Shown: positions 15,880 through 64,000 of the stretch, piece by piece
Numbering within the stretch: the first letter of the stretch is position 1
Layout: each line of letters starts with the position of its first letter
From: Tepiditoga spiralis
GTDB taxonomy: Bacteria; Thermotogota; Thermotogae; Petrotogales; Petrotogaceae
Direction: 5' to 3'
Length of the DNA stretch: 64,000 bases
Assembly (NCBI RefSeq): GCF_014701195.1
Contig: NZ_AP018712.1
Location: 948,501 to 1,012,500 of the forward strand
Made by a program: the position numbers and the translations under genes
The notes under the pieces: model-generated
Database searches by the model: none
Told to the model about the DNA's origin: nothing
The model's input: only the letters and a program-made list of their open reading frames with translations

Positions 15880-16070
15880 AAACTAAAGATTTCTCAATCC
15901 ACTCCTAGAGATTGAGAAGTTACTAAAATTTTGAATAAAGTATCCCGGCTTATACATCATTCTACTATCTATGCCTTCCCTTTCAGTGGCTTTTATAGAG
16001 TTCGTCCGTAATTACGGTGGCTGGTCCGCAATGGAATTTCACCATTTTCCAATATTCAAAACTTTAATAT
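15880..16070 (-). ncRNA. Cobalamin (B12) riboswitch upstream of cobT
   Basis: On the minus strand the leader contains the conserved B12 box (AAGCCACTGAAAGGGAAGGC, near 15974-15993). It also has GGTGAAATTCC and GCGGACCAGCCACCGTAA on the 5' side and GCCGGGATACT on the 3' side. Segments at about 15925-15937 and 16053-16065 pair to close the aptamer. Between the aptamer and cobT a 9-bp hairpin (TTCTCAATC / GATTGAGAA) may be the expression platform; it has no T run, so translational or anti-termination control is more likely than a simple terminator. Confidence 0.93.
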
Positions 16071-16098
16071 TTAATTTTTATATATTTTATTTTACCAT

Positions 16099-28549: not shown

Positions 28550-28569
28550 AAAAATTAGAGGTGATAAAA

Positions 28570-30108
28570 GTGAAGAAATTGCCAATAGGAGTACAAGACT
28601 TTAAAGAGTTAATAACAGATTATATATACATAGATAAAACAAAATATTTATATGAATTAATAACAAGTGGAAAATTTTATTTTTTATCACGCCCAAGAAG
28701 ATTTGGTAAGAGTTTAACAGTATCAACACTTTACTATCTATTTAAAGGAGAAAAAGAATTATTTAAAGGAACATACATATATGATAAATGGGAGTTTAAA
28801 GAGTATCCAGTAATAAAAATAGATATGTCAGATAATACATTAACAACATATGAAGAATTTATAAAATCATTATATGATAAAATAAATGAATTATATAAAG
28901 AAGAAGAACTGACACCAACAACAGATGATTTGCCAACAATGTTTGGGAATTTAATAAAGAAATTAAGCCAAAAGTATGAAGAAAGAACGGTAATACTAAT
29001 AGATGAATATGAATCTCCAATATTAGAACATCTAAACAACAAAGAAGAAGCAGAAAAAGTAAGAAGATTTTTAAGAGAGTTCTATAAAAAAATAAAATCA
29101 AAAGATGAATACATAAAGTTTGTATTCATGACAGGAATAACAAAGTTTACAAAAACAGGAGTATTTTCAGCATTAAATAACTTGAACGATATATCATTAG
29201 ATAAAACATACTCGCAAATGTTGGGATATACACAAGAAGAATTAGAAGAAAACTTTAAAGAACATATAAAAGAAACAGCAATTGAAATGAAGATGGAAGA
29301 AAAAGAGTTATTAAAAAACTTAAAGATGTACTACAATGGATTTTCATTTGATGGAGAAGATAGTGTATACAATCCATTTTCAATACTACAATTTTTCAAA
29401 AAAAGGAAGTTTCAAAACTATTGGTTTGAAAGTGGATCACCATCATTTTTGTATGAATACATAAAAGGAAAGAAGATAAGATATGAAGACTTAGTGAAGT
29501 ATCCAGTGAGTGAACTCGACTTTTCAACTCGAGAAATAGAAGAAGCAAATGCAAGTATATTCTTTACACAATCAGGATACTTAACTTTTAAAGGAAAAGA
29601 ACAGTATGGAATGGAATATGAATACCTATTAGACTATCCAAATATAGAAGTAAAGAACAGCTTTTCAAAGATGATATTAGAAGCAAACTATGAGCTTGAA
29701 AGAGGAAAAATAAAAGAAATAAACAAAACAGTGTGGAAAGCAATAAAAGAAAAAGACATAGAAGGAATAATAAAAGAAATAAAAAGAATAATAAGTGCAA
29801 TCCCATACAACTTGCATAAAAAAGAAGAAAGCTACTATCATTCATTGATATACACAATACTTGCATCAGCAGGACTGAACGTAACAGCAGAAGAATTAAC
29901 GAACTTAGGAAGAAGCGATATAGTAATAGAAGAAGACGTCATATACATAATGGAAATAAAGATAGACAAAAGTGCAGAAAAAGCTTTAAATCAAATAAAA
30001 GAAATGAAGTACTATGAAAAGTACAAAGAGAAAGAAATTTATATAATAGGAATAAACATAAACTCAGAAAAAAGAAACATAGACGAATACAAAATAGAAA
30101 AGATATAA
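28570..30108 (+). CDS. AAA-ATPase-like / PD-(D/E)XK nuclease family protein
   Basis: The GTG at 28570, four bases after AGAGGTGAT, is the likely start and gives LPIGVQDFKELI close to the N-terminus as in relatives. The product of about 512 residues combines an AAA-ATPase-like domain with a C-terminal PD-(D/E)XK nuclease-like domain (PDDEXK_9 type). ATPase motifs are Walker-A-like RPRRFGKSLTVS near 42 and Walker B ILIDEYESPI near 143. The nuclease region has Asp in GRSDIVIE and E-x-K in IYIMEIKI near 465. These proteins occur in many copies in Marinitoga/Oceanotoga-like genomes and in Bacteroidetes; mobile or defence roles are suggested but unproven. A paralogue lies at the right end of the window. 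Confidence 0.88.
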   Translation: MKKLPIGVQDFKELITDYIYIDKTKYLYELITSGKFYFLSRPRRFGKSLTVSTLYYLFKGEKELFKGTYIYDKWEFKEYPVIKIDMSDNTLTTYEEFIKSLYDKINELYKEEELTPTTDDLPTMFGNLIKKLSQKYEERTVILIDEYESPILEHLNNKEEAEKVRRFLREFYKKIKSKDEYIKFVFMTGITKFTKTGVFSALNNLNDISLDKTYSQMLGYTQEELEENFKEHIKETAIEMKMEEKELLKNLKMYYNGFSFDGEDSVYNPFSILQFFKKRKFQNYWFESGSPSFLYEYIKGKKIRYEDLVKYPVSELDFSTREIEEANASIFFTQSGYLTFKGKEQYGMEYEYLLDYPNIEVKNSFSKMILEANYELERGKIKEINKTVWKAIKEKDIEGIIKEIKRIISAIPYNLHKKEESYYHSLIYTILASAGLNVTAEELTNLGRSDIVIEEDVIYIMEIKIDKSAEKALNQIKEMKYYEKYKEKEIYIIGININSEKRNIDEYKIEKI

Positions 30109-30135: not shown

Positions 30136-30450
30136 ATAAAAAATCGTAAAAAGCGTGAAAATAATGATGGGAAATAGTGAAAAAATAAAACACCGAAATT
30201 TTTGATATTAATATTTCATTAATAATGAAAAGTTAAATTAAAATATTTATAAAAAATTAATATTTAATAAAGTTTCACAAATTTTTATCATGAAAATAAT
30301 TAATAATAACATTATAAAAAATATAAAATTTAAATTCACAAATATTAATAGTTAATATAAAATTAATAACATAAAAAAATGAAACAAACGATATAAATTA
30401 ATCAAAAAAACATTATATTTAGGTAAAAATATTTATTTGTTTAGTAAAAA

Positions 30451-30476
30451 TAGTTGATTTTTTTTTTTGATATAAT
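30451..30476 (+). promoter_or_regulatory. T-tract promoter, copy 1 (T11)
   Basis: TAGTTGA, then 11 T residues (30458-30468), then GATATAAT. This gives an extended -10 (TGATATAAT, 30468-30476) and a potential -35 TTGATT whose spacing to TATAAT equals the T count, here 11, well below the optimum of 17. The start of the peptide gene is 111 bases downstream. Confidence 0.6.
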
Positions 30477-30546
30477 GTTTGTGTAAGTAAAGGAAAAATG
30501 ATTAATTAATTTATCGAATTAAAATAAAAATTATAATATTAAAATA

Positions 30547-30558
30547 TTTGTGCACAAA
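30547..30558. promoter_or_regulatory. Leader palindrome, copy 1
   Basis: The perfect palindrome TTTGTGCACAAA lies 28 bases before the peptide start. Copy 2 has the same arms separated by two extra bases. It may be an operator or an RNA element. Confidence 0.35.
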
Positions 30559-30586
30559 AATACAAATTGGAAAAAGAGGAGTTTGA

Positions 30587-30748
30587 ATGTTTAAATTAGT
30601 AGGAACATTAGGAATTCCAAATTCTGTAGCAGGACTTCTTGCAGGAGGAATAGGGGCTATTGCTACTGAAGGTGGAATGTCTGCATTTATTAATACTGTA
30701 AAAAATATAATTATGAGTAAAGGAAAAGCTGCTGCAATATCTTGGTAA
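30587..30748 (+). CDS. Internally deleted circular-bacteriocin precursor peptide
   Basis: A 53-codon frame starts at ATG after AGAGGAG. It equals the 74-codon precursor at 39847 minus 21 codons: it runs MFKLVGTLGIPNSVAG directly into LLAGGIGAIATEGG and ends GKAAAISW. The 63-bp loss lies between 12-base direct repeats (GTAGCAGGNCTT) in the intact copy, so slipped recombination is the likely cause, and it keeps the frame. The lost stretch holds the SGASW helix region, so an AS-48-like fold with four or five helices is unlikely to survive. Probably non-functional as a bacteriocin, though still expressible. Confidence 0.75.
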   Translation: MFKLVGTLGIPNSVAGLLAGGIGAIATEGGMSAFINTVKNIIMSKGKAAAISW

Positions 30749-30755
30749 TGAATTC

Positions 30756-30785
30756 CCCCATAATATTTATATAAATATTATGGGG
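30756..30785 (+). other. Intergenic hairpin after the peptide gene, copy 1
   Basis: A 14-bp perfect stem (CCCCATAATATTTA / TAAATATTATGGGG) with a two-base loop has no T run. It is likely an mRNA-stabilising or processing hairpin rather than a full terminator, and is conserved in copy 2. Confidence 0.6.
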
Positions 30786-30802
30786 ATTTAAGGAGATTTT
30801 TT

Positions 30803-31027
30803 ATGAATTTAGTAGAATTATTATTAATAAGGTTAAAAAATAGAGTAAAAATACAATTTGTAAAAACATCTAAAATATTTAAGTTATTAGAAAAAAGGTG
30901 CTTTGAAGGTATGAGTATTATTTTTGTTTCACATATGAAAGAAATACAAAAAAATTTTTCTGATAGATTCTTTTATTTTGAAAATAATATTTTGAGGGAG
31001 GAAAAAGAAAATGTTGAACTTTTTTAA
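30803..31027 (+). pseudogene. Fusion remnant: start of membrane-protein gene joined to end of ABC ATPase gene
   Basis: The 74-codon frame begins exactly like the 590-residue membrane protein (MNLVELLLIRLKNR ... SKIFKLL). It then switches to the C-terminal part of the ABC ATPase (EGMSIIFVSHMKEIQKNFSD ... ENVELF). The junction lies near 30890-30900, where both parents have an AAAAAGG run, which points to a short-homology deletion of about 2.7 kb. The joined frame is open by chance and lacks ATP-binding motifs, so it should be inactive. Confidence 0.85.
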
Positions 31028-31229
31028 AGAAAATAAAAATTATATTATTTTCTTTGTTATTTTAACCGTTATTTTTGCAGTACTTTTTTTCATTATTAAA
31101 AATGATATTTATAGACTTTTGTCTTTTATTGTTTATTCTGTTGTTGGAACACTATCTTTTAAATTTTTTTCAACAGCCAAAGCTATTAATACTGTTAAAA
31201 AGGGGGATATAAATGAAAACAAAAAATGA
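31011..31229 (+). CDS. Small two-helix membrane protein, bacteriocin immunity candidate (copy 1)
   Basis: The 72-residue product has two membrane helices (about 12-30 and 35-53) and a lysine-rich C-terminus (KKGDINENKK). It differs from the copy at 43064 at three or four residues only. Small basic two-helix proteins are the usual immunity proteins of circular bacteriocins. It overlaps the preceding remnant by 17 bases and the next gene by 17 bases, the same coupled layout as in copy 2. It has stayed open although the production genes of this copy are broken. Function is inferred from size, charge and position. Confidence 0.6.
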   Translation: MLNFFKENKNYIIFFVILTVIFAVLFFIIKNDIYRLLSFIVYSVVGTLSFKFFSTAKAINTVKKGDINENKK

Positions 31230-31590
31230 TGGATGTTTGACATCTTTTCTTGTGTTTATAATAGTTATTTCTGGTATTGCTCTTCTTATTAATATAATAT
31301 TTATTAATAATCCATCATCAAACTTATCTGTTTCGCATACATTAGTTATGAATAATTTAATTTTAACTTCTCTTCAAATAGTTGCAGCGTTGTTAATGCT
31401 TATGAGAGAAAAGATAGGCGTATATATGTATATATTTATAGGTATTACAAATGCAATTATAACTTTTATATTTGGAAAAAATTTAAAAATGACTTTAATA
31501 TCTATTGCTTTTTTAATGATTCCGTATATAATATTATACTTTTTGCTAAGAAGAAATAAAAAAATGAATAGTGCAAAAAATATTGATTAA
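31213..31590 (+). CDS. Small four-helix membrane protein of the bacteriocin locus (copy 1)
   Basis: The 125-residue product has four hydrophobic segments (about 9-30, 44-63, 68-88, 93-112) and a basic tail (LLRRNKKMNSAKNID). Only two residues differ from the copy at 43266. No family is recognised. Its tight coupling to the 72-residue gene and survival in a degraded locus suggest an immunity or accessory role. The start codon lies just after GGGGGATATAA. Confidence 0.55.
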   Translation: MKTKNDGCLTSFLVFIIVISGIALLINIIFINNPSSNLSVSHTLVMNNLILTSLQIVAALLMLMREKIGVYMYIFIGITNAIITFIFGKNLKMTLISIAFLMIPYIILYFLLRRNKKMNSAKNID

Positions 31591-31615
31591 TGAGTAAGAT
31601 ATTTTTTTATTAAAA

Positions 31616-31673
31616 AATAACTTCAAAGTAATTTGATACTTTTATTAAAGTATTTTTTTACTTTGAAGTTATT
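31616..31673. terminator. Branched bidirectional hairpin between convergent genes
   Basis: AATAACTTCAAAGTA (31616-31630) pairs with TACTTTGAAGTTATT (31659-31673). An inner hairpin (ATACTTT / AAAGTAT) lies in the loop. It can terminate the sugar-permease operon on the minus strand and the bacteriocin copy on the plus strand. Confidence 0.65.
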
Positions 31674-33026: not shown

Positions 33027-33920
33027 TTAATCCATCTTTAATTTCATAGTTTTCATATAAACAAGTGAAAATATTCCAATTATTATAAATATAACAACAG
33101 CAATTGCTGAACCATAACCATAGTAACCTTTTGGACTAAAAATTTTATCCATTAAAACGTGTCTGTTGTATACAGACATTGTTTCTGTTCCAAGAGCTCC
33201 TTTTGTCATTATATATACAACGTCAAAAACTCTTAAAGAATCAAGCGTTCTAAAGATTAAAGCAACAGCAATTGTTGGTCTTAATAATGGAAAGGTGATA
33301 GATGTAAATTGTTTCCATTTGTTTGCTCCATCTATTCTTGCAGATTCATATAATTCTGATGGTATTATTTGTAATCCTGCAAGTAATAATAAAGCCATAA
33401 AAGGTGTTGTTTTCCATATATCAACAGCTATTATTGCATTCATTGCAAGACCAGGAGTTCCTAAAATAGGTGTTCCTTGAGGGATTATGCCTAAGTTATA
33501 CAATAAATGGCTTATAAAACCATATTGGTCTTCATACATCCACTTCCACATTTGAGAAGATATTGCAGTAGGTATTGCCCAAGGAATTAAAATGGCAGCA
33601 CGTACAAGACCTCTTAGTTTAAAACTTGCATTTAAAATTAATGCAGTTATTAAACCAAGAAAAAATTCAAAAGAAACTGCAATTGCAGTAAAATAAAGTG
33701 TATTCCAAAAGGATGCAACAAATCTTTTGTCTTGAAATAATTTTATATAATTTTCTATTCCAACAAATTTTTTAATTGAATCTGGTCTTAAGGAAAACTT
33801 AAAAAAACTATCAATTATAGTTTGTATAAGTGGGAAAAATGCTGTTATTAATATAGCAATTAAAGCAGGAAGTATTAACCAAAATGCAAGTTTAACATCC
33901 TTTTTCTTGTATGAATGCAT
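33027..33920 (-). CDS. Sugar ABC transporter permease (MalF-like)
   Basis: The 297-residue protein has six membrane helices and the EAA motif ESARIDGANKWKQFTSITFPL near residue 195. FWLILPALIAILITAFFPLIQT at the N-terminus is typical of MalF/UgpA-type permeases. It forms the membrane channel with the downstream PDZ-containing permease. It lies 61 bases after the solute-binding protein gene, with GGAGGTG before its start. The large periplasmic P2 loop of enteric MalF is absent. Confidence 0.92.
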   Translation of the reverse strand: MHSYKKKDVKLAFWLILPALIAILITAFFPLIQTIIDSFFKFSLRPDSIKKFVGIENYIKLFQDKRFVASFWNTLYFTAIAVSFEFFLGLITALILNASFKLRGLVRAAILIPWAIPTAISSQMWKWMYEDQYGFISHLLYNLGIIPQGTPILGTPGLAMNAIIAVDIWKTTPFMALLLLAGLQIIPSELYESARIDGANKWKQFTSITFPLLRPTIAVALIFRTLDSLRVFDVVYIMTKGALGTETMSVYNRHVLMDKIFSPKGYYGYGSAIAVVIFIIIGIFSLVYMKTMKLKMD

Positions 33921-39405: not shown

Positions 39406-39695
39406 AAATCACATTAAGGTTTAAAATAAATGTAAAAAATTCAAACTTTTGAAATTGATATTGTGTTAATAATAAAAAGTTAAAACGAAATGTTTATAAA
39501 AAATAAATATTTAATATAATTTCACAAACTTTTATAATGAAAATAATTAATAATAACATTAGAAAAAATATAAAGATTAAATTCACAAATATTATTAGTT
39601 AATATGAAATTAATAACATAAAAATGTAAAAGCAATGATATAAAATAAACAAATTATATTTCAGTTTAGTAAAAATGTTTGTTATTTTATAAAAA

Positions 39696-39733
39696 TAGTT
39701 GATTTTTTTTTTTTTTTTTTTTTTTGATATAAT
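39696..39733 (+). promoter_or_regulatory. T-tract promoter, copy 2 (T23)
   Basis: TAGTTGA, then 23 T residues (39703-39725), then GATATAAT. The extended -10 TGATATAAT (39725-39733) is the same as in copy 1. The possible -35 TTGATT would be 23 bases from TATAAT. The precursor start codon is 114 bases downstream. Confidence 0.6.
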
Positions 39734-39805
39734 TTTTATGTAAAAAAAGAAAAATGATTATTGAATTTATTGAATTAAAACGAATAAAAATTATAATATT
39801 GAAAT

Positions 39806-39821
39806 ATTTGTGTGCACAAAT
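39806..39821. promoter_or_regulatory. Leader palindrome, copy 2
   Basis: ATTTGTG-TG-CACAAAT lies 26 bases before the precursor start. The arms match copy 1 but with a two-base spacer. Confidence 0.35.
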
Positions 39822-39846
39822 ATAAATTGAAAAAGGAGGAGTTTGA

Positions 39847-40071
39847 ATGTTTAAATTAGTAGGGACATTAGGAATTCCAAATTCTGTAGCAGGGCTTGTT
39901 GTTGGTATAATTTCTGGTGCAAGCTGGACATTTTTAATAATAAGTCTTGTAGCAGGACTTCTTGCAGGAGGAATAGGTGCTATTGCTACTGAAGGTGGAA
40001 TGTCTGCATTTATTAATACTGTAAAAAATATAATTATGAGTAAAGGAAAAGCTGCTGCAATATCTTGGTAA
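39847..40071 (+). CDS. Circular bacteriocin precursor, AS-48 / leucocyclicin-like
   Basis: The 74-residue peptide starts after AGGAGG. A leader of three residues (MFK) followed by a mature part LVGTLGIPNSVAG ... IIMSKGKAAAISW is predicted. Circular bacteriocins of this class start the mature chain with Leu/Val/Met near a short GI motif, are very hydrophobic, end in a Lys-rich helix and an aromatic residue, and are head-to-tail joined. The GIP-x-x-VAG opening recalls AS-48, and the GKAAAIxW end recalls leucocyclicin/lactocyclicin. The mature ring would be 71 residues with Leu1 joined to Trp71. Downstream genes match those of circular-bacteriocin clusters in type and order. Leader length and circularisation are inferred. 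Confidence 0.85.
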   Translation: MFKLVGTLGIPNSVAGLVVGIISGASWTFLIISLVAGLLAGGIGAIATEGGMSAFINTVKNIIMSKGKAAAISW

Positions 40072-40078
40072 TAAAATC

Positions 40079-40108
40079 CCCCATAATATTTATTTAAATA
40101 TTATGGGG
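40079..40108 (+). other. Intergenic hairpin after the precursor gene, copy 2
   Basis: A 14-bp stem (CCCCATAATATTTA / TAAATATTATGGGG) with a two-base loop and no T run separates the precursor from the maturation genes. It could protect the short precursor mRNA and lower expression of the downstream genes. Confidence 0.6.
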
Positions 40109-40125
40109 ATTTAAGGAGATTTTTT

Positions 40126-41898
40126 ATGAATTTAGTAGAATTATTATTAATAAGATTAAAAAATAGAGTAAAAATACAATTTGTAAAAACATCTAAAATA
40201 TTTAAGTTATTAGCAAAAAAAGGTTCTTTTTTTGCTTTTTTTATGATAATTTTATTTAAAATAATAATTTCAATATCTATGTCTTTATTTTTATATAAAA
40301 CTTTTTATTATGAAACTCATAAAGTATATTGGACTTCATTCATTTTTTTAGGTTTATATTTTAATGCTATAGTATATGGAATGGTATCTTATAAAAGAAC
40401 ATATTTTCCTATAGATATATCTATTTTAAAAAGTTCACCATTGGAAGATAGAAACATTTATTTGTTTGTTTTAATAGAAGAATATGTTTGGCATTGTTTA
40501 AATTCAATAGAATTTTATTTGTCATCTTTTCTTTTTTTACTTTTTATTAATTTGCACCATTTATTATTTTTTACATATATTTTTATTTTAGGTTTATCAA
40601 GTTCTTTTTTTATTTTTGTTTTTTTTAATATTTTATATGGTAACTATAAAATTTCTCTTATAAAAAATCCAATAGGAATTTTTAGATTTATTTTATATGG
40701 TATAAATTCAGTTTTATTTTTTGAATTTGGTGTAATTTTAACAAAATTCATATATGTACCTACAATGCTATATAAAAAAATTTTATTTCCGAACAATAAG
40801 TTAAGTTTATCAGATAATACTCTTAAAATTCTTGAAAATTCTTTAATAAATGATTGGCTTAATCCAATTAAAGAATACTTTTTTTATTTATTTAATTCAA
40901 CAATTGACATAAGTAAAGAATTCTACAATTTTATTTCATTGAGATATTTAATTTTTTTGATATTTGGAATAATATTGTTTTTTATGATAAAAATTTTTTC
41001 ACCAAAATATAATAAAAATATTTTTATAAAGTCTGTAGAAATAAATAAAAAAGATTTTTTATTTATTTATGTATTAACATTAAAAAAAGTGAATTCAGTT
41101 TTTAATAATAAAAATTTTTTGGTTGAAAAAGAGTTAAATATAATAAAAAATAGTCGATGGCTTGTATCTCCTTCATTTTACTCTAAAATTATTGCAAATT
41201 ATGACTTTTATTTTATGACAGGGGTTATTATAACAAATTTCAAATATATAAATAGTATTGGATATATTATAAGCTTAATATTATTGTTCAATGTATTACT
41301 GATTTTTAATCAAGTAACCGAATTAAGACGTGACCATTTGTTTATTTATACACTTTCATCAGAGAAAAGAAATATAAATTTAGTAAAACTTTCTGGTAAT
41401 TCAATTGATATTGTTTATAAATCAAAATTAAATTTAATGAGATTAAACTTATTAGTTCCATCAATAATTACCTTTTTTATAAGTTTATACTTAACTATAG
41501 AAAAAATAAATTTTATGAATTATAATTTTTATTTATGTATTATTACTTCAATATTTACTTTAGTTTATATGATTTGGTTTGCTCCAATATCTGTACTATA
41601 TATAGAACCGATGTTTTCAAGATTTGATTATAAAAATACAGAAGAGCTTATAGATAAAAGAATTGAAGAAAATATTTATGAAAAGATATTAAAAATCCCA
41701 AGATTAATTTTATTCACTCCAGTTTTATTAATTCTATATTTCAATGTGTTTTTTAATTATCTTGATAAAATTAAAAATTTTTTTCCATTTATTTTTTTAA
41801 TTTATTTTGTTATAATAAGTGTAACCTTCAATTATTTTTTTAATTATATAAAAGAAAAAGGTATAAAAAAGGTAGATGGTGAAAATATTTATGTTTAA
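40126..41898 (+). CDS. Large multi-pass membrane protein of the bacteriocin cluster (As-48B-like by position)
   Basis: The 590-residue protein has about ten to twelve hydrophobic segments, a basic N-terminus (LLIRLKNRVKIQFVKTSKIF) and a charged soluble region near 335-385. Circular-bacteriocin clusters carry a large membrane protein of this size directly after the precursor gene (As-48B, CirB and relatives), thought to take part in maturation or export. I recognise no catalytic motif. The start is set by AAGGAGATTTTTT. The end overlaps the likely start of the SpoIIM-like gene by eight bases. In copy 1 only its first 29 codons remain. Confidence 0.7.
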   Translation: MNLVELLLIRLKNRVKIQFVKTSKIFKLLAKKGSFFAFFMIILFKIIISISMSLFLYKTFYYETHKVYWTSFIFLGLYFNAIVYGMVSYKRTYFPIDISILKSSPLEDRNIYLFVLIEEYVWHCLNSIEFYLSSFLFLLFINLHHLLFFTYIFILGLSSSFFIFVFFNILYGNYKISLIKNPIGIFRFILYGINSVLFFEFGVILTKFIYVPTMLYKKILFPNNKLSLSDNTLKILENSLINDWLNPIKEYFFYLFNSTIDISKEFYNFISLRYLIFLIFGIILFFMIKIFSPKYNKNIFIKSVEINKKDFLFIYVLTLKKVNSVFNNKNFLVEKELNIIKNSRWLVSPSFYSKIIANYDFYFMTGVIITNFKYINSIGYIISLILLFNVLLIFNQVTELRRDHLFIYTLSSEKRNINLVKLSGNSIDIVYKSKLNLMRLNLLVPSIITFFISLYLTIEKINFMNYNFYLCIITSIFTLVYMIWFAPISVLYIEPMFSRFDYKNTEELIDKRIEENIYEKILKIPRLILFTPVLLILYFNVFFNYLDKIKNFFPFIFLIYFVIISVTFNYFFNYIKEKGIKKVDGENIYV

Positions 41899-42406
41899 TA
41901 TTTTTAAAATTTAAAAAAATAAAATAAAAGTTCTTTATCTATGTTTTATTATTTATACTTTAGGTATAATTATAGGATTGTTTTCTAAAATAAATTATAA
42001 TACAAATATTGATCCAAAAAAGCTTTTTATTATGGATGTATTTGTTCATAATATTTTTAATTTGAGTTTAATTTTAATATTTGGATTAATTACTTTTGGA
42101 ATTGTTAGTAGTTTAATGCTTTTAATAAATGGAATATATTTTGGTGTTACCATACATTTTATTTTTTTAAAGTACAGTTTTTCACTTTTATTTAAAGGGA
42201 CTTTTTTTCATTTATTTTTTGAATTGACTGCAATATTCATGACAACAGCTATATCTTTTTCTTTTTGGGATTTTTTTAAAAAAAAAGAAAAAGATAAGAA
42301 AGTTGTGTTATCAGAAATTATTATTGTTTTTTTGATATCAATTTTATTATTATTTATTTCTGCAATAATTGAGTGTAAAATTTCATCAGTTCTAGTGAGG
42401 AGTTGA
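41891..42406 (+). pseudogene. SpoIIM/DUF95-like membrane protein with in-frame TAA at codon 8
   Basis: The readable frame from about 41978 encodes membrane helices typical of stage II sporulation M-like proteins found in circular-bacteriocin clusters (NLSLILIFGLITFGIVSSLM, NGIYFGVTIHFIFL). Reading upstream in frame adds a credible first helix (VLYLCFIIYTLGIIIG) that reaches back to a TAA at 41912. Seven codons before that stop is an ATG (41891, MFNIFKI) with a GGTGA site, overlapping the previous gene as is normal in this operon. The likely original gene therefore carries a nonsense codon. A TTG at 41978 would restart after the first helix. A sequence error, real inactivation or an unusual start are all possible. 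Confidence 0.65.
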
Positions 42407-42411
42407 AAAGT

Positions 42412-43080
42412 GTGTTACCAAAATTAGAAGTTGAAAATTTAAGTTTTTCATATGATAATAAAACTTTTATTTTAAAAAATATAAATTTAAAAGTATATCC
42501 AGGAGAATCAATTTGTATAAAAGGAGTTAATGGATGTGGAAAAACGACATTTCTAAAAATATTATCAGGATTAATAAATACAAAAAATATTATTAAATTC
42601 AATGGAAAAGAAATAAAAAATTTCAAAACATATAAAAAGAAAATTTCTTACATTCCAGATAAACCGTACTTATATGAAGAACTCACTGGAAAAGAAAATA
42701 TAAATATGATAATGCATTTATGGAATGAAAACAAAAAAGAATATTTAAAAAAAATTTCTTTTTTATCAAATATGTTTGAAATACAAAAAGATTTGAATAC
42801 TATAGTAAAAAATTATTCTTTAGGTATGAAAAGTAAATTATACTTAATTGCGATGCTTGCTAGAAATACAGAATTGATGCTTTTAGATGAACCTTTAACT
42901 ACATTAGATATTAAAAGTAGAAAAAATATAGAAAATATTCTCTATAATAAGAAAAAGGAAGGTATGAGTATTATTTTTGTTTCACATATGAAAGAAATAC
43001 AAAAAAATTTTTCTGATAGATTCTTTTATTTTGAAAATAAAATTTTGAGGGAGGAAAAAGAAAATGTTGAACTTTTTTAA
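42412..43080 (+). CDS. ABC transporter ATP-binding protein of the bacteriocin cluster
   Basis: The GTG at 42412, nine bases after GAGGAG, is preferred over a TTG at 42403 that touches the ribosome site. The product of about 222 residues has Walker A GVNGCGKTTFLKIL near 36, the signature NYSLGMKSKLYLIA near 135 (LGMKS in place of LSGGQ), Walker B LMLLDEPLTTLD near 155 and the switch histidine in IFVSHMKE. It resembles As-48D and related ATPases that work with the SpoIIM-like and large membrane proteins in production and immunity. It overlaps the 72-residue gene by 17 bases. Copy 1 keeps only its last 40 or so codons. Confidence 0.9.
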   Translation: MLPKLEVENLSFSYDNKTFILKNINLKVYPGESICIKGVNGCGKTTFLKILSGLINTKNIIKFNGKEIKNFKTYKKKISYIPDKPYLYEELTGKENINMIMHLWNENKKEYLKKISFLSNMFEIQKDLNTIVKNYSLGMKSKLYLIAMLARNTELMLLDEPLTTLDIKSRKNIENILYNKKKEGMSIIFVSHMKEIQKNFSDRFFYFENKILREEKENVELF

Positions 43081-43282
43081 AGAAAATAAAAAATATACTA
43101 TTTTCTTTGTTATTTTAACCGTTATTTTTGCAGTGCTTTTTTTCATTATTAAAAATGATATTTATAGATTTTTGTCTTTTATTGTTTATTCTGTTGTTGG
43201 AACACTATCTTTTAAGTTTTTTTCAACAGCCAAAGCTATTAACACTGTTAAAAAGGGGGATATAAATGAAAACAAAAAATGA
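43064..43282 (+). CDS. Small two-helix membrane protein, bacteriocin immunity candidate (copy 2)
   Basis: The 72-residue product has helices at about 12-30 and 35-53, an N-terminal cluster of charges (FKENKKY) and a lysine-rich tail. Size, basic charge and position after the ATPase fit the immunity protein of circular-bacteriocin clusters, which protects the producer membrane. It is coupled by overlap to genes on both sides. Differences from copy 1 are conservative. Confidence 0.65.
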   Translation: MLNFFKENKKYTIFFVILTVIFAVLFFIIKNDIYRFLSFIVYSVVGTLSFKFFSTAKAINTVKKGDINENKK

Positions 43283-43643
43283 TGGTTGTTTAACTTCTTT
43301 TCTTGTGTTTATAATAGTTATTTCTGGTATTGCTCTTCTTATTAATATAATATTTATTAATAATCCATCATTAAATTTATCTGTTTCGCATACATTAGTT
43401 ATGAATAATTTAATTTTAACTTCTCTTCAAATAGTTGCAGCATTATTAATGCTTATGAGCGAAAAGATAGGCGTATATATGTATATATTTATAGGTATTA
43501 CAAATGCAATTATAACTTTTATATTTGGAAAAAATTTAAAAATGACTTTAATATCTATTGCTTTTTTAATGATTCCGTATATCATATTATACTTTTTACT
43601 AAGAAGAAATAAAAAAATGAATAGTGCAAAAAATATTGATTAA
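43266..43643 (+). CDS. Small four-helix membrane protein of the bacteriocin locus (copy 2)
   Basis: The 125-residue protein has four hydrophobic segments and a basic C-terminus. It differs from copy 1 at two residues (SLN for SSN, MSE for MRE). No named family is recognised. It is the last gene of the locus, overlapping the 72-residue gene by 17 bases, which suggests a shared immunity or accessory task. Confidence 0.55.
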   Translation: MKTKNDGCLTSFLVFIIVISGIALLINIIFINNPSLNLSVSHTLVMNNLILTSLQIVAALLMLMSEKIGVYMYIFIGITNAIITFIFGKNLKMTLISIAFLMIPYIILYFLLRRNKKMNSAKNID

Positions 43644-43689
43644 TGAGTAAAATGTTTTTTTTATTAATAAAAAAAGTAATCCAAGAATA

Positions 43690-44151: not shown

Positions 44152-45153
44152 ATGAAAAAAGTATTTAGTTTTTTTGTTATTTTTTTAGTTTCTCTAATGA
44201 CTTTTTCTATTGGAATAAGTGATTTATTTATCGAAGCTCAAAAAACATTGGGTGATTATAAAATTTCAGTAATGGATTTTGAACTTGCCAATATGGATTT
44301 TGAAAGGTCAAAGATAGAATCAATTAATAAAAAAACAGAGTTAATGGGTAATTTAAATTATTTTAATGCAACTTCTTCTTATTTGAATTCTTTAAATAAA
44401 TTTTATACGGATGTTAGTAATAGATTATTTAATGTAATTAATAGTGAATTATCTGTATCTATGAGTGAAGTTCAAAAAAACAATGCAGAGATTGATTATA
44501 AAAATAATAAAGCTTTGTTTGAAAAAGGATTGATAACAGAAGATACATTAACTCAATCAAAAATATCTTTAAATGATGTAGAGATAGATTTACAAAATAA
44601 AAATTTAAACTTTGAAAATGCAATGAATGATTTTACAGAAGCATCTTCTATGGATTATAAATCAATTGAAGTTAAATTGTATGATCCTAAAAAAATTTTT
44701 AAAACGGATGAAGAGTATTTAAGTAATAATTATTCTTTAAAAACAACAAAAATTTCCCTTGAAATAGCACAATATGACTTAGATAATCTTCCATCTAATG
44801 CTTCTGAATATGATAAAAAGAGCTATCAAATAAAGGTTGAAAAAAACAAAATAAACTTAAATAGTTTAAAAAATACATTAATAAAAACACATAAAAATAC
44901 AAAAAATAGTATTACATCTACTTACAACACCTTAAATAACTTAAAAGAAAAAATGAAGTTAAAAGAAAATGATTTTATGGATGCTCAAAGTAGATACAAT
45001 AAAGGGTTAATTTCTGAAAAGGAATTGAATACATCAAAAATATCTTTCTTAAGTTCAAAATCTTCTTATTATAATACTTTAAAGAATTATTATAATTTGA
45101 TAATAAATTATATTTTAGATTTCAATGAAAAACCGGAGGAGGTTTTAAATTGA
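44152..45153 (+). CDS. TolC-like outer-membrane efflux protein (short, helical)
   Basis: The 333-residue product has a signal peptide (MKKVFSFFVIFLVSLMTFS) and long amphipathic helices. It has the two internal repeats typical of the TolC/OEP family: ALFEKGLITEDTLTQSKISL near 125 and SRYNKGLISEKELNTSKISF near 283. It is shorter than usual TolC proteins (about 430-490) and its strand regions are weak. It may form a periplasmic helical duct or pair with the next gene product. Their overlap is four bases (ATGA). AAAGGAGG precedes the start. Confidence 0.75.
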   Translation: MKKVFSFFVIFLVSLMTFSIGISDLFIEAQKTLGDYKISVMDFELANMDFERSKIESINKKTELMGNLNYFNATSSYLNSLNKFYTDVSNRLFNVINSELSVSMSEVQKNNAEIDYKNNKALFEKGLITEDTLTQSKISLNDVEIDLQNKNLNFENAMNDFTEASSMDYKSIEVKLYDPKKIFKTDEEYLSNNYSLKTTKISLEIAQYDLDNLPSNASEYDKKSYQIKVEKNKINLNSLKNTLIKTHKNTKNSITSTYNTLNNLKEKMKLKENDFMDAQSRYNKGLISEKELNTSKISFLSSKSSYYNTLKNYYNLIINYILDFNEKPEEVLN

Positions 45154-46430
45154 AAGTAAAATTAACTTTATTGATAATTTCTCTTTTAACAGTTTTATCT
45201 TTTTCTAACTTTAATGATTTATATTTAAGGAACTTAAACACTTCTACTTACTTAAAAAGTAAAGAATCATTAGATGTATCCATACTTTCTTTAAATAAAA
45301 AAGAAAACTTTTGGAGTCCTTATTTATCATTAAATACAGGATTTGGTGGAATATCTTTTGATAAAGATGGGCTAAATAAAATGAACTTTTCAATAAAAGC
45401 AAACTTTTTAGAACTTTATGGAAGTACAATTGGATTAACTCTTCCATTTTCAATAGATGCAAAAGATAATTGGAAGTTTGATTCTGATTTAAAAAACTTA
45501 TCTTTAAGCTTTACACGTAGTTTGGCAAAAGAGCCAGAAGTTGAAATGTTGAATGCAAAATCAAATTATTATAATTCACTTTATTCTTTTAATAATTATA
45601 AAACATCTATTTTTATAAAAACTATAAAAGATATTTTTTCAAAATACTATATAATTAATAGTTTAAAGTTAAATAAAGAAGAACTTCAAATTCAAAAAAA
45701 TAAATATAATTTTGAAACTGATGAAGATAAAAAGGAAAGTTTGAATATTCAAATTCTTCAAAGAGAGAAAATAATTAATTCTTATGAAGTTCAGCTTAAA
45801 TCACTTTCTGAAATAGATGAATCTTTGTATGAAAGTACTAAAAAATATGTTGGAAATTTAGTTGAAAATTCAAAAGAATCAACAATAGTGAATAGATATG
45901 ATTTAAAGGCTATAAAGTTATCAACAAAAGCAAAAGAACTTCAAAAAAATAATTGGTTCTTACCTTATTTACCAGATATGAGCATAAATATAAGTATTTC
46001 TGATATTAATAATTTTAACTGGAGTATAAGTATTTCATTTGATTATAGTATTTTTGATAGGGGTGAAAGATTAATAGCAATAAATTCAAGAAAAATAAAT
46101 TCAAATGAATACTCTTATGAAGAAGCTTTAACTACAATAAATAATAATATAAATACCTTAAAAGATTCAATAATTAATTCTGAAATAGATATTCAAATTT
46201 CTAAAATAAATATAAAAAATGCTCTTGAAGATTATAATAATAAGAAAAAATTATCTGAAAAAGGATTTATATCTAAGGATGATTTTAATTTATTTAAAGT
46301 TGAATATGAATTGAAAAAATTAGATTTAGAAAAAGTTAATAATGATATGTTGATAAATAAATTAAATCTTTTAAAAGAATATGGGTACTTTCAAAATTCA
46401 GAGGTGATAAAAGTTGAAAAAATCGATTAA
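45150..46430 (+). CDS. TolC-like outer-membrane efflux protein
   Basis: The 426-residue product has a signal peptide and the outer-membrane efflux layout. Strand segments (SPYLSLNTGFGGISF, SINISFSDYS-like SISISFDYSIF near 295) are set between long helices, and the second repeat includes KKLSEKGFISKDDFNLFKVE near 370. It would form the outer-membrane exit duct for the MacA/MacB-like pump encoded downstream. It overlaps both neighbours (4 and 17 bases), so the five genes are one operon. Trimers could contain one or both OEP-like proteins. Confidence 0.8.
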   Translation: MKVKLTLLIISLLTVLSFSNFNDLYLRNLNTSTYLKSKESLDVSILSLNKKENFWSPYLSLNTGFGGISFDKDGLNKMNFSIKANFLELYGSTIGLTLPFSIDAKDNWKFDSDLKNLSLSFTRSLAKEPEVEMLNAKSNYYNSLYSFNNYKTSIFIKTIKDIFSKYYIINSLKLNKEELQIQKNKYNFETDEDKKESLNIQILQREKIINSYEVQLKSLSEIDESLYESTKKYVGNLVENSKESTIVNRYDLKAIKLSTKAKELQKNNWFLPYLPDMSINISISDINNFNWSISISFDYSIFDRGERLIAINSRKINSNEYSYEEALTTINNNINTLKDSIINSEIDIQISKINIKNALEDYNNKKKLSEKGFISKDDFNLFKVEYELKKLDLEKVNNDMLINKLNLLKEYGYFQNSEVIKVEKID

Positions 46431-47466
46431 ATGGTTAATTATAATAGTAACTTTAGTGGTATTAATATTTTTAATAATAAATGCCTTAAATATAAAAAAA
46501 GAATCTGGAAATGTGCAAACAGATAAAGTTTCTACAGCGCTAAATAATATTTCTGTTGAATACAAAGTAAAGAAAGACAATATAGGAGATTATATTGAAG
46601 TGAGTGGTAATGTAACTGCAGAAACAAGAAGAATAATTTCTGAGGTTTCTGGTGAGGTTATGGATGTTTATGTTGAAAATGGAGAAAAAATAAAGAAAGA
46701 TCAAAAGATGGCTAAGTTTGAAGATATAGATTATAGAATAAATTATTTGAATAAATTGAATACTTATGAACTAGCTGTGAATGATGGAGAAAAAATAAAA
46801 GAAATAAAAAAATTACAATTAGATCAAGCAAAAAAAGACTTAGATAATACAATTTTAAAGTCTCCTGTTGAAGGAATTATAAGTAGTGTTAATATAAGTG
46901 TTGGAGATGTTATATCAAGAAACTTTGTATCATTTACAGTTGTAGATAATAATAGTTTAAAGATAGAGGCTTCTATAGATGAGATTGATTTACCAAAAAT
47001 AAAGGTTGGAATGAAGGCTTATGTTGAATTTGAGCAATTACATGTAAAAATTCCTGCTAAAGTGAGCTTGATAAATCCCGTTGCAGTAAATGCAGGTGGA
47101 ATAGTTGTAATACCTATAGAGTTAAAGTTTGAAGATAATCCATTAAAATATGGAATAATATCTGGTTTAACTTGTAATGTAAAATTAATAACTATGGAAT
47201 TAGATAATTCTATTGTTATTCCAGTAAATTCTTTAATAAAAGGTAAAGATGGAAATGAATATGTTTTTAAGAAAACATCAGAAGGACGCGAAAAAGTTCC
47301 AGTTATAACTGGTCAAAAAACTGAAAAGTTTGTTGAAATAAAAAATGGTTTATCTGAAGGAGATACAGTTTTAATAATGCCAAGTAAAGAAGAAATAAAT
47401 AGATTAAAAGAAAAGTATGCGACACCTAATATAAGAATAGGTACTGGGAAGAGGCCAAAGAAATGA
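46414..47466 (+). CDS. Periplasmic adaptor (membrane fusion) protein, MacA/HlyD-like
   Basis: The start is TTG after GAGGTGATAAAAG. The 350-residue protein has one N-terminal membrane anchor (about 5-25) and a lipoyl/barrel-sandwich half (ISEVSGEVMDVYVENGEKIKKDQKMAKFED) with its partner (LDNTILKSPVEGIISSVNISVGDVIS). Between them is a hairpin only about 45 residues long; beta-barrel strands follow. Such adaptors connect an inner-membrane ABC exporter to a TolC duct. The hairpin is short for MacA, which may match the unusual pair of OEP proteins. It overlaps the ATPase gene by four bases. Confidence 0.9.
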   Translation: MKKSIKWLIIIVTLVVLIFLIINALNIKKESGNVQTDKVSTALNNISVEYKVKKDNIGDYIEVSGNVTAETRRIISEVSGEVMDVYVENGEKIKKDQKMAKFEDIDYRINYLNKLNTYELAVNDGEKIKEIKKLQLDQAKKDLDNTILKSPVEGIISSVNISVGDVISRNFVSFTVVDNNSLKIEASIDEIDLPKIKVGMKAYVEFEQLHVKIPAKVSLINPVAVNAGGIVVIPIELKFEDNPLKYGIISGLTCNVKLITMELDNSIVIPVNSLIKGKDGNEYVFKKTSEGREKVPVITGQKTEKFVEIKNGLSEGDTVLIMPSKEEINRLKEKYATPNIRIGTGKRPKK

Positions 47467-48170
47467 AAGTAATGCATTTAAAAGATATATGGAAAATTTA
47501 TCAAATGGGAAAAATAGAAGTTAATGCATTGAGAGGAGTTTCACTTGAGGTAAATGATGGAGATTTTGCAATAATAATTGGCCCTTCTGGAAGTGGAAAG
47601 TCTACATTACTTCATATTTTAGGATGTTTGGATAGGCCAACAAAAGGAAATGTTTTTGTAGAAGATAAAGAAGTTTCAAAAATGACAGACTCTCAACTTG
47701 CAAAAATTAGAAATCAAAAAATAGGGTTTGTTTTTCAAAAGTTTAATCTTTTAGGAAGCATGAGTGCACTTGAAAATGTTGAACTTCCAATGATTTATGC
47801 TGGTAAGCATTTAAAGGAAAGAAAAAAGAAAGCAAAAGAATTATTGGAACTTGTGGGACTTGGAGATAGGTTGAATCATAAACCAAATGAACTTTCTGGA
47901 GGACAACAGCAAAGGGTTGCAATAGCAAGAGCTTTAGCAAATGATCCATCTTTTTTACTTGCAGATGAGCCTACTGGGAATTTAGATTCAAAAAGTGGGG
48001 AAGAAATATTAGAAATATTTCATACCTTGCATAAAATGGGAAAAACTCTTGTAATAGTAACGCATGATCCGGAAATGGTTTATGAAGGTAATAAAACAAT
48101 AAAGCTTTTTGATGGACAAATAGAAAAAGCAGAGGTGAGAGATTTTGGAAATATTAAGAGAAACATATAG
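47463..48170 (+). CDS. MacB/LolD-type ABC ATPase
   Basis: The 235-residue protein has Walker A GPSGSGKSTLLHILG near 40, the MacB/LolD-type Q-loop QKFNLLGSMSALENVELPM, signature LSGGQQQRVAIARAL near 145, Walker B FLLADEPTGNLDSKSG near 165 and the switch histidine in VIVTHDPEM. It energises the FtsX-type permease encoded next, with which it overlaps by 26 bases. ABC ATPases of this class power substrate expulsion from the periplasm through TolC, and also occur as the G component of AS-48 accessory transporters. Confidence 0.95.
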   Translation: MKVMHLKDIWKIYQMGKIEVNALRGVSLEVNDGDFAIIIGPSGSGKSTLLHILGCLDRPTKGNVFVEDKEVSKMTDSQLAKIRNQKIGFVFQKFNLLGSMSALENVELPMIYAGKHLKERKKKAKELLELVGLGDRLNHKPNELSGGQQQRVAIARALANDPSFLLADEPTGNLDSKSGEEILEIFHTLHKMGKTLVIVTHDPEMVYEGNKTIKLFDGQIEKAEVRDFGNIKRNI

Positions 48171-49371
48171 ATCTCTATTCTCCAATAAACTCCGAACATT
48201 TCTTTCAATGCTTGGAATAATAATTGGAATAACTTCAGTAATAACAGTTATGGCACTGGGAGCTGGTACAACTGAAAATATAACAAATAGTGTATCTTCT
48301 CTTGGATCTAATGTTATGATAATTTTTCCAGGATATTCAGGAGGACGTGGTGGAAAAGTTGCAAGTTCTATGAATTATCTTGAAAAATCAGATGCAGAAA
48401 ATATAGCTAATTATGCAGAAGATGTTATAAGAGCAACGCCTGTTTTACAGTCTAATTTTTTAGTACAAAATGGAAATTTAAATATAACTTCAACAATAAT
48501 GGCAGGTAATCCTGAATTATTTAATATTTTGAATTTAAATATTGATTCTGGAAGAAGTTTTGTTGAAGACGATTATGCAAATGTAAAAAATTATGCAATT
48601 ATAGGATATACTACTGCAGAATCTTTATTTGAAGGAAAAAATCCAATTGGGGAAAAAATATATTTAATACAGAAAAATTCAAAATTATTTAGAAAAATTC
48701 CTTTTGAAGTTATAGGTGTTTTAAAAAAAGCAGGAAGTACTTTAATGTTTAATACAGATAAGACAATTTTTATTCCATATAGTACAGCAGATGCAAGACT
48801 CTTTAAAACAAATGGAAAAGCATCTATGATATTGGCTTCAGGTGTTTCAAGTGAAAAATCTTTAGAAGCACAAATGGAAGTTGATTTTATATTAAACAAT
48901 AAATTTGGAGATGATACATCTTATCAAATAATGAGTCAAGATTCGATGTTAGAAGTAATAGGGCAAATAACTGGAGTAATGAATTTTATATTAATTGCCA
49001 TAGCAGCTATTTCTTTGGTGGTTGGTGGAATAGGAATTATGAATATAATGCTTGTATCTGTTTCAGAAAGGACAAGAGAAATTGGAGTTAAGATGGCACT
49101 GGGAGCAGGGAGAAAAAGAATACTTCTTGAGTTTTTAACTGAAAGTATTGCTATAACTTTTATTGCAGGATTAATAGGAATAATTTTAGGAAGTCTTTTA
49201 TCCGCTGGAATATCATCACTTGCTGCAAATTTAAATTTAAAAGCAATAATTAGTTTAAAATCAATATTAATAGCCTTTGGTGTTTCAGCATCTGTTGGAT
49301 TATTCTTTGGAATATATCCAGCAAATAAAGCTTCAAAATTGAGTCCAATAGAAGCATTGAGATATGAATAA
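48145..49371 (+). CDS. MacB/FtsX-type ABC permease
   Basis: The start is TTG, five bases after GAGGTGA. The 408-residue protein has the MacB order: first helix near 20-42 (LSMLGIIIGITSVITVMALG), a periplasmic MacB_PCD domain of about 220 residues, then three helices in the C-terminal FtsX domain (GGIGIMNIMLVSVSERTREIG near 290). It is predicted to form a mechanotransmission exporter with the preceding ATPase and adaptor. Substrates of MacAB-like pumps are peptides, macrolides or lipids. Its closeness to the bacteriocin locus makes peptide export or immunity possible. Confidence 0.94.
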   Translation: MEILRETYRSLFSNKLRTFLSMLGIIIGITSVITVMALGAGTTENITNSVSSLGSNVMIIFPGYSGGRGGKVASSMNYLEKSDAENIANYAEDVIRATPVLQSNFLVQNGNLNITSTIMAGNPELFNILNLNIDSGRSFVEDDYANVKNYAIIGYTTAESLFEGKNPIGEKIYLIQKNSKLFRKIPFEVIGVLKKAGSTLMFNTDKTIFIPYSTADARLFKTNGKASMILASGVSSEKSLEAQMEVDFILNNKFGDDTSYQIMSQDSMLEVIGQITGVMNFILIAIAAISLVVGGIGIMNIMLVSVSERTREIGVKMALGAGRKRILLEFLTESIAITFIAGLIGIILGSLLSAGISSLAANLNLKAIISLKSILIAFGVSASVGLFFGIYPANKASKLSPIEALRYE

Positions 49372-62312: not shown

Positions 62313-64000
62313 CTATTTAATATTTTTAATTTTTTCTACTGAAATGCCTGTTAATTCAGAAATCATATTCACATCTAATCCTTTTTTAAGCATGTTCTTT
62401 GCTACTTTTTCTATCTCTGTTAATTCAACATCTTTATCCAAATTACTAACAATTTCAACCTCTTTTTTATCAAAAGCTATTGAAACTTTTATTATATCAT
62501 TTATTCCATAATTTTTTATATCTTCTTCATACCTTTTTTCATTTATTTGTTTTAATCCATTTTTAGCACTATTTAATAGTGTTTTTTCGTTTTTATAAAA
62601 CTTTTTAAACTCTATTATTATTCCTTTGTCTGTTTTATCTTTTGGAATTAAAATAACATCAGCTCTTCCAAGTCCTGTTTCTCTATTACTCTTTATTATG
62701 TACTTTTCTTTTAAACCAACACTCATTCCAAGTATTAATCCATGATAAAATCTTTCTGGTTCTTCTCCACTAACGTCAAAATAACTCAATGTATTCATAG
62801 TTAGTTTTTGAAAGTCTTCTTTAAACTCTTCTATATGTCCATTTATTAAATTTATTAATATATTATTGAGCTTTATTCTTTCTTCTTCAAGCATAGATAC
62901 TACAGTTTTATTATAAAATATTTTTACTTCTTTATTTGGTATCTTTAAAGTATATCTTTCATAATCATGATTTATATTTTTTGTCCATTTTAAATATCCG
63001 CTGAATAAAAATAATGTCCATACAGACTCTTCTAAGTTGTTATTTAAGTCACCATAAACCATAGTTTCATTTATTGTACTTTCAATTTCTTCACCATTTA
63101 TTAGTTTTTCTATTTTATCTTTTAATTCAGCACTTCCTTGTTTTATTAATTGTTTAACTAAGTAGTTTCCACTCGTATTCATCCAATATGGTCTTATTTT
63201 ACCTTTATTCTTTGCAAGAGTTACTATAGAAAAAGGATTGTAAATTTCAACACCACCAAAATTATAACCATTGTACCAATCTATAACTTCACTTTCTTCA
63301 TATTCAAGTTCATAATACTTCAATGTTTCTTCAACTTCTTCTTTAGTTAAACCATACTTATCATTGAATAGTTCATTCAATACAGTAGAAACTTCTAAGT
63401 TATTCACACCAGTAAAGATACTTTCTTTAGAAACTCTTGTTATACCAGTAAGAACTGCTTTTTCAAGGTATACATTATCTTTTAATGCCATTCCAAATAA
63501 GTTACCAATTAAAGATATTATTTCATCATAGTATCCGTGTAAGTAAGCTTGTTGAATGGGAGTATCGTATTCATCTATTAATATTATTACCTTTTTACCA
63601 TAGTATCTTTCCATATATTCAGATAAACTTCTTATAGAATTTTCATAATCAGCATCTAAAGCTTCTCTACCCATTATTTTATCATATATAATTTTTTCTT
63701 CATTATCTAAAACTTCTAAAACATACTTATGCTTTAAATACAACCTTGAAAGCTCCATGGTTAATAAAGCATGCATCTTTTTTAAGTTATTAGACTTTAA
63801 ATCTTTAAAGGTGATGTATATAACTGGATGTTTATTTAAATGTTTTTCTATTATATTTTTTTCTTTATATATTTTTAAGTTTTTAAAGAGGTATTCGTTA
63901 TTTTGAGTAATATCAAAAAAGTACTTCATCATAGATTGACTGAGAGTTTTCCCAAACCTTCTTGGTCTTGTTATTAATAAAACATTCCCACCTTCAATAA
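62313..64000 (-). CDS. AAA-ATPase-like / PD-(D/E)XK protein, 5' end beyond the window
   Basis: The frame continues upstream of the first internal ATG (63932) to the window edge, adding NVLLITRPRRFGKTLSQS, the Walker-A-like region expected in this family. Walker B is in IILIDEYDTPIQQAY. The C-terminal nuclease-like part has Asp in LGRADVILIPK and E-x-K in GIIIEFKKF. A short helix-turn-helix-like end (MLKKGLDVNMISELTGISVE) resembles the tail of Rpn-type PD-(D/E)XK proteins. It is a diverged paralogue of 28570-30108. Cellular role is unknown. Confidence 0.85.
   Translation of the reverse strand, partial: IEGGNVLLITRPRRFGKTLSQSMMKYFFDITQNNEYLFKNLKIYKEKNIIEKHLNKHPVIYITFKDLKSNNLKKMHALLTMELSRLYLKHKYVLEVLDNEEKIIYDKIMGREALDADYENSIRSLSEYMERYYGKKVIILIDEYDTPIQQAYLHGYYDEIISLIGNLFGMALKDNVYLEKAVLTGITRVSKESIFTGVNNLEVSTVLNELFNDKYGLTKEEVEETLKYYELEYEESEVIDWYNGYNFGGVEIYNPFSIVTLAKNKGKIRPYWMNTSGNYLVKQLIKQGSAELKDKIEKLINGEEIESTINETMVYGDLNNNLEESVWTLFLFSGYLKWTKNINHDYERYTLKIPNKEVKIFYNKTVVSMLEEERIKLNNILINLINGHIEEFKEDFQKLTMNTLSYFDVSGEEPERFYHGLILGMSVGLKEKYIIKSNRETGLGRADVILIPKDKTDKGIIIEFKKFYKNEKTLLNSAKNGLKQINEKRYEEDIKNYGINDIIKVSIAFDKKEVEIVSNLDKDVELTEIEKVAKNMLKKGLDVNMISELTGISVEKIKNIK

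Follow-up and report, generated by a model that had tools for sequence, protein, structure and literature searches.

The window considered here is a 64,000-nucleotide stretch (G000:C1:948501-1012500) of the single 2,502,404-bp contig of Tepiditoga spiralis sy52T, the type strain, whose genome was assembled from 454 and MiSeq reads. On the forward strand of the window, at 39847-43643, lies an operon of six genes that encodes a circular bacteriocin precursor together with putative accessory and immunity proteins, and that is preceded by a promoter module repeated elsewhere in the chromosome. An earlier note, made from the sequence alone, had placed a circular bacteriocin cluster of a probable Thermotogota genome at 39440-43668. 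The host is indeed a member of the Thermotogota, and the interval coincides almost exactly with a duplicated unit, 39443-43674 (+), which contains the operon genes proper. A decayed second copy of the whole unit, missing from the earlier note, is found 9 kb upstream, at 30196-31617. T. spiralis lives in the deep sea and has an outer sheath; ring-shaped antimicrobial peptides of this kind have been described chiefly in Gram-positive bacteria. The genome paper of the strain does not mention bacteriocins.

The first gene (39847-40071, +) encodes the predicted precursor of 74 amino acids. A search against family profiles, the check that the earlier note had proposed, places the precursor above the thresholds of two circular bacteriocin families: TIGR03651 with 57.4 bits (curated cut-off 30.7) and PF09221 with 37.2 bits (cut-off 23.6). 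Residues 8-74 match AS-48 (E 4.4e-7). A scan of the genome collection with the single precursor peptide found nothing; a query by pairwise alignment matched four thermophilic Bacillaceae. Among named genomes, Geobacillus and Anoxybacillus, both thermophilic Bacillaceae, have the nearest precursors, at 43-48% identity. Because the profile matches lie far beyond chance and are joined by homology and synteny, assignment of the operon to the circular bacteriocin class, as first proposed, is virtually certain. The peptide would presumably be cyclised and antimicrobial. Bacillota precursors align with the core from L4, and one of them begins with MLK, compared with MFK here; the suggested three-residue leader, which would leave a core of 71 residues, is plausible, with the cleavage point read from the alignment. 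The calculated average mass of the circular form of such a core is 6923.2 Da, and its monoisotopic mass 6918.85 Da. Between the precursor gene and the next gene there is a 14-bp hairpin (40078-40109), with a stem conserved in the decayed copy, and it is possibly an RNA processing or attenuation element.

The gene order given in the earlier note, i.e. precursor, large membrane protein, SpoIIM/DUF95 domain, ABC (ATP-binding cassette) ATPase and small basic protein, is correct. The 590-residue polytopic membrane protein (40126-41898, +) is As-48B-like: by tblastn it matches the protein in the As-48B position, between precursor and SpoIIM, of Enterococcus faecalis pPD1 and of a Listeria innocua plasmid, and by phmmer it has a full-length Bacillota homologue (1.8e-37). 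It belongs to no Pfam or NCBIfam family. The ATPase (42403-43080, +), assigned by profile, homology and tree, groups with ATPases of Bacillota circular bacteriocin clusters with support 97/96; thus both this protein and the large membrane protein are of the circular bacteriocin cluster type. The gene for a basic hydrophobic protein of 72 residues (43064-43282, +) overlaps the ATPase gene as in AS-48-type clusters. Its size, isoelectric point of 9.9 and position fit a cationic hydrophobic immunity protein without a sequence match, and a search for similarity to As-48D1 gave none. A sixth gene (43266-43643, +), not listed in the earlier note, encodes a basic membrane protein of 125 residues, a putative second immunity protein. 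It is unique to T. spiralis, with no homologue in the other 102 of the 103 Thermotogota genomes, T. spiralis included, that formed the comparison set for distribution.

The standard accessory set that had been described is incomplete in one of its members. The SpoIIM/DUF95 gene (41891-42406, +; PF01944, 68.7 bits) matches positions 2-162 of the 163 profile positions. It had been taken as an open frame of 172 codons from the ATG at 41891, which overlaps the stop of the preceding gene, and this does not hold, as codon 8 is an in-frame TAA (41912-41914) and only 41915-42403 is open. The sole standard start before the domain body is a TTG at 41978, and its use would cost the first membrane helix; a complete domain is therefore left without a standard start for its full length. 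Since SpoIIM genes of Geobacillus and Anoxybacillus also overlap the upstream gene and have a few extra N-terminal residues ahead of the first helix, a recent nonsense mutation is the simplest reading of the stop. A homopolymer indel as its source was rejected by hand inspection, with the same frame found on both sides of the stop and the upstream ATG present in that frame only. For leucocyclicin Q, the mature ring stays trapped in cells that have lost the DUF95 protein (PMC6131525); a ring confined to the cells would thus be in keeping with a lost SpoIIM.

Upstream of the intact operon is the 404-bp promoter module (39443-39846, +), delimited by DNA search of the genome against itself and by alignments. 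It carries a promoter (39699-39733, +), evident from the sequence and from comparison of the copies, that consists of TTGATT, a tract of 23 T residues (39703-39725) and TATAAT, with a spacing of 23. By DNA search, 12 near-complete modules, 82-93% identical to copy 2 (copy 1 at 82%), are found, all in the T. spiralis genome, and relatives show only short and weak matches. The copies are at contig positions 33895, 43418, 50460, 555656, 978696, 987943, 1212978, 1404181, 1445836, 1465663, 2240147 and 2382642 (loci L143-L147, L107, L110-L112 and the window). Every copy has TTGA, a T tract and TATAAT, and these conserved promoters, in which a homopolymer tract separates -35 and -10, are constant in length apart from the tract: once the T spacer is subtracted, the stretch between the start of a module and the end of its -10 box measures 268-270 in all 11 full-length copies, the twelfth starting 12 nt late. 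The spacers between TTGATT and TATAAT are 7, 11, 13, 16, 16, 16, 17, 18, 18, 18, 19 and 23. Promoters of the sigma-70 type work best at a spacing of about 17 bp. Eight of the 12 modules fall within 16-19, and neither bacteriocin copy has the optimal spacing (23 in the intact, 11 in the decayed copy). In 212.5 kb of the genome, eight of the nine T runs of at least 13 nt are module tracts. There is thus good reason to regard the module as a real shared promoter.

Between the -10 box and the Shine-Dalgarno sequence, pattern search shows a palindrome, ATTTGTGTGCACAAAT (39806-39821, +). The form ATTTGTGNNCACAAAT is matched exactly at five places in the genome (contig positions 988306, 1445852, 1752604, 2119444 and 2240501), and the reversed control pattern has none in the same genome; the palindrome is likely the operator of a regulator. 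It occurs upstream of several module-headed operons, and the whole region of about 390 bp is often repeated around other sites.

What do the modules precede? The cargoes are mostly peptide-antibiotic-like. They include radical SAM/SPASM proteins closest to maturases of ribosomally synthesised and post-translationally modified peptides (RiPPs), a PqqD-like protein encoded alongside ABC exporters, C39 peptidases accompanied by a CN-hydrolase protein, CPBP proteases (in one case together with a secreted peptide of 95 residues), lipoproteins, and the intact and decayed circular bacteriocin copies. At locus L145, about 190 nt after the -10 box of the module at 555656, a cysteine-containing peptide of 35 residues, MKVIIKAEKSDKGAYVPMGCGPCSHLGPCRKVIDR, has a ribosome-binding site and precedes a radical SAM/SPASM gene and ABC exporters; it is a candidate radical-SAM RiPP precursor. 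Loci L143 and L146 (modules 43418 and 1212978) carry near-identical operons for a C39 peptidase, an apolipoprotein N-acyltransferase-like CN_hydrolase protein and a secreted protein of about 200 residues that bears a double-glycine-like motif (MSDSQMSAVVGG).

How might these parts work together? The precursor would lose its short leader MFK, and a membrane complex of the 590-residue protein, the SpoIIM protein and the ATPase would join the core head to tail. The ring would be exported over the inner membrane and would permeabilise competitors, the 72- and 125-residue proteins protecting the producer. Transcription would start at the module promoter, copied before a dozen mostly peptide-antibiotic-like operons; the poly-T tract would set the spacing between -35 and -10, and strand slippage would switch each operon on or off independently. 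Taken together, the locus is very probably a horizontally acquired circular bacteriocin operon under a poly-T module promoter, and probably a silent one. That the T tract actually switches expression is an evenly balanced proposition, and phase variation of the module operons is offered here as a hypothesis. Given a spacing of 23 instead of about 17 and an early nonsense codon in SpoIIM, silence of the intact operon in the strain that was sequenced is probable; that the type strain as sequenced does not produce the bacteriocin is somewhat favoured. More tentative is the broader notion of a phase-variable RiPP arsenal, where circular bacteriocin, radical-SAM RiPPs, C39-processed peptides and lipoproteins would stand under copies of one slipping promoter and a clone would be a mosaic of producers. 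If the T tract does control expression, production of antibiotic peptides is switched at random and operon by operon, and the absence of product from a given culture would be accounted for.

A precedent for such a switch is found in the vlp genes of Mycoplasma hyorhinis, where slippage in poly-A promoter tracts switches expression (PMC10502178). As in T. spiralis, each family member has a copy of one homopolymer-tract promoter; the T. spiralis cargoes, however, are unrelated peptide operons and not surface lipoprotein paralogues, and here switching is proposed from sequence comparison. In Neisseria, phase variation of bacteriocin-like peptides via tracts in the coding frame has been proposed for the nap genes (PMC11798529). 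In the literature searched there was no report of a homopolymer promoter shared across RiPP operons, or of one in Thermotogota. The shared poly-T-spacer promoter is the new result here and the part most likely to surprise specialists.

Several points weigh against this interpretation. The T-tract lengths come from one 454 and MiSeq assembly, and homopolymer lengths may be wrong. The variation of the tract, 7-23 nt, is between paralogous copies and not within a clone, and the module promoters are predicted from the sequence of one genome. The SpoIIM frame, from the ATG that overlaps the stop of the 590-residue protein gene, reads MFNIFKI and then TAA. Neither of the small membrane proteins matches a known immunity protein, so that their immunity roles are putative. 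Lastly, the AlphaFold model of the core peptide, for which a saposin-like helix bundle would be expected, is mostly helical, with a predicted local distance difference test score (pLDDT) of 50 from a 5-row alignment; that of the 590-residue protein has a pLDDT of 40 (4-row alignment), and both models are too weak for a fold assignment.

The decayed copy bears on whether anything is made at all. Compared with the intact copy, its coding parts are 97% identical and its 5' region 83%. By alignment, it begins with its own promoter module (30196-30586, +), which has a tract of 11 T residues and a spacing of 11. The precursor gene (30587-30748, +) has suffered a 63-bp in-frame deletion between two direct repeats, which leaves 53 residues. 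About 2.7 kb is gone, from the start of the 590-residue protein gene to the end of the ATPase gene; the first codons of the one are fused to the end of the other (30803-31027, +), and the SpoIIM gene is lost. Intact second copies of the genes for the 72-residue (31011-31229, +) and 125-residue (31213-31590, +) putative immunity proteins follow. Between the two copies of these immunity genes there are 5 nonsynonymous and 11 synonymous differences, where 12.4 nonsynonymous ones would be expected if neutral (P 5e-5); the nonsynonymous rate dN is 0.011 and the synonymous rate dS 0.096. If the synonymous changes are roughly divided between the two lines, about 18 nonsynonymous changes would be expected were the second copy alone neutral, so both copies look constrained. 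The constraint fits either retention of the immunity genes after loss of production or a very recent deletion.

Could the operon, then, be a relic, a decaying acquisition from which nothing is made, with the SpoIIM nonsense codon and the deletions of the second copy as stages of one decay and only the immunity genes kept against the ring of other strains? This reading is a real possibility, though not the favoured one. The TAA at SpoIIM codon 8, the decayed copy with its intact, constrained putative immunity genes and the presence of bacteriocin clusters in just 4 of the 103 Thermotogota genomes are consistent with it. Yet the frames of the 590-residue protein, the ATPase and the SpoIIM domain run uninterrupted for hundreds of codons in a region of 19% G+C, and the SpoIIM nonsense change must therefore be recent or tolerated. 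Moreover, outside the deletion the two precursor copies differ by synonymous changes only.

A second alternative concerns the module itself, which might be the passive downstream flank of a gene family, spread by recombination, with T tracts that drift neutrally. A gene for a protein with AAA-ATPase_like (PF09820) and PDDEXK_9 (PF08011) domains (28561-30108, +) precedes the module of the decayed copy, and the same is found at eight other copies; in all, family members stand 87-336 bp upstream of nine of the 12 modules. With its roughly 20 close copies, the family may have spread the module through recombination between its genes. Three modules, however, have no such neighbour, and a full module is missing beside about half of the close members. 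All module lengths are constrained save the T tract, with the preference for spacings near the optimum noted above. In addition, the homology between copies runs out close to the start codon of operons for secreted or peptide-processing products; in two copies it breaks off shortly downstream of the -10 box. A passive flank is rather unlikely, though less so than the rivals discussed below, and a shared promoter remains the preferred reading. The PF09820/PF08011 family is also represented at 62313-63932 of the window; it has 44 matches in the genome, about 20 of them close, and appears to be a mobile or multicopy element.

A circular bacteriocin in a diderm raises the question of how the ring leaves a cell with two membranes. 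Directly downstream, at 44152-49371, is an operon for two OEP proteins, a MacA-like adaptor, a MacB-type ATPase and a permease. It adjoins the cluster on the same strand, and adaptor, ATPase and permease genes are part of As-48-type clusters, so one can envisage it as the diderm counterpart of As-48EFGH that exports the ring across both membranes. This is improbable. The five-gene operon has its own upstream region and is found in relatives that lack the bacteriocin cluster: OEP-MacAB operons of the same order occur in the six relatives inspected, five of them without a circular bacteriocin. It is a core operon of the family and gives no evidence for a dedicated outer-membrane route; a dedicated As-48EFGH-like exporter was rejected on the same ground. 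In one genome without the cluster (G039), a DAHP-synthase-like gene lies between the OEP-MacAB operon and, close by, the alpha-amylase-family gene also present at the T. spiralis locus; the cluster in T. spiralis therefore looks inserted. As to the peptide itself, a weak MscL match (E 0.056) might suggest an ordinary small membrane protein, a notion refuted for practical purposes by the far stronger full-length circular bacteriocin match and the complete neighbourhood.

The four Thermotogota genomes with the precursor family are T. spiralis and three of genus g5 (G043, G044 and G045) of the same family. The g5 clusters share the Thermotogota host and the relative order of precursor, ABC ATPase and polytopic membrane proteins, but they have a longer hydrophobic leader (about 28 residues) and an ATPase of another lineage, and are at three different genomic sites. 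One appears broken: in G044 (locus L010) the large membrane protein is in two pieces, and no SpoIIM gene separates it from the ATPase gene. A common origin with the T. spiralis cluster is disfavoured, while a single Thermotogota ATPase clade is not rejected by the approximately unbiased test (p 0.08).

Circularin A/uberolysin-class clusters (TIGR03651) of Geobacillus and Anoxybacillus resemble the T. spiralis operon in the precursor and in the order precursor, large membrane protein, SpoIIM and ABC ATPase. The T. spiralis operon differs in that its host is a diderm, its SpoIIM gene is interrupted, two further small membrane proteins are encoded, the unit has been duplicated and a module supplies the promoter. 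With the AS-48-type clusters of pPD1 and the L. innocua plasmid it has in common the As-48B-position homologue and the small basic gene overlapping the ATPase gene; it lacks the long leader and a linked EFGH-type transporter, and its immunity candidate is without sequence similarity.

The view that such clusters are unknown outside the Firmicutes is not supported, given the g5 genomes and the predictions in Thermotogae and Novosphingobium. One survey gives a single predicted Thermotogae precursor (Xin et al., 2020; PMC8534725), which may be from the T. spiralis genome itself. One Novosphingobium cluster was predicted by van Heel et al. (2017; PMC5695211), and two Chloroflexi loci were predicted earlier via DUF95 (PMC4289311). 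T. spiralis is thus a further predicted case in Thermotogota, where one was already predicted, and adds to the evidence that these clusters moved from Bacillota to diderm thermophiles, possibly more than once.

Elsewhere in the window, at 15917-16074 on the reverse strand, there is a cobalamin riboswitch (Rfam RF00174, 61.9 bits).

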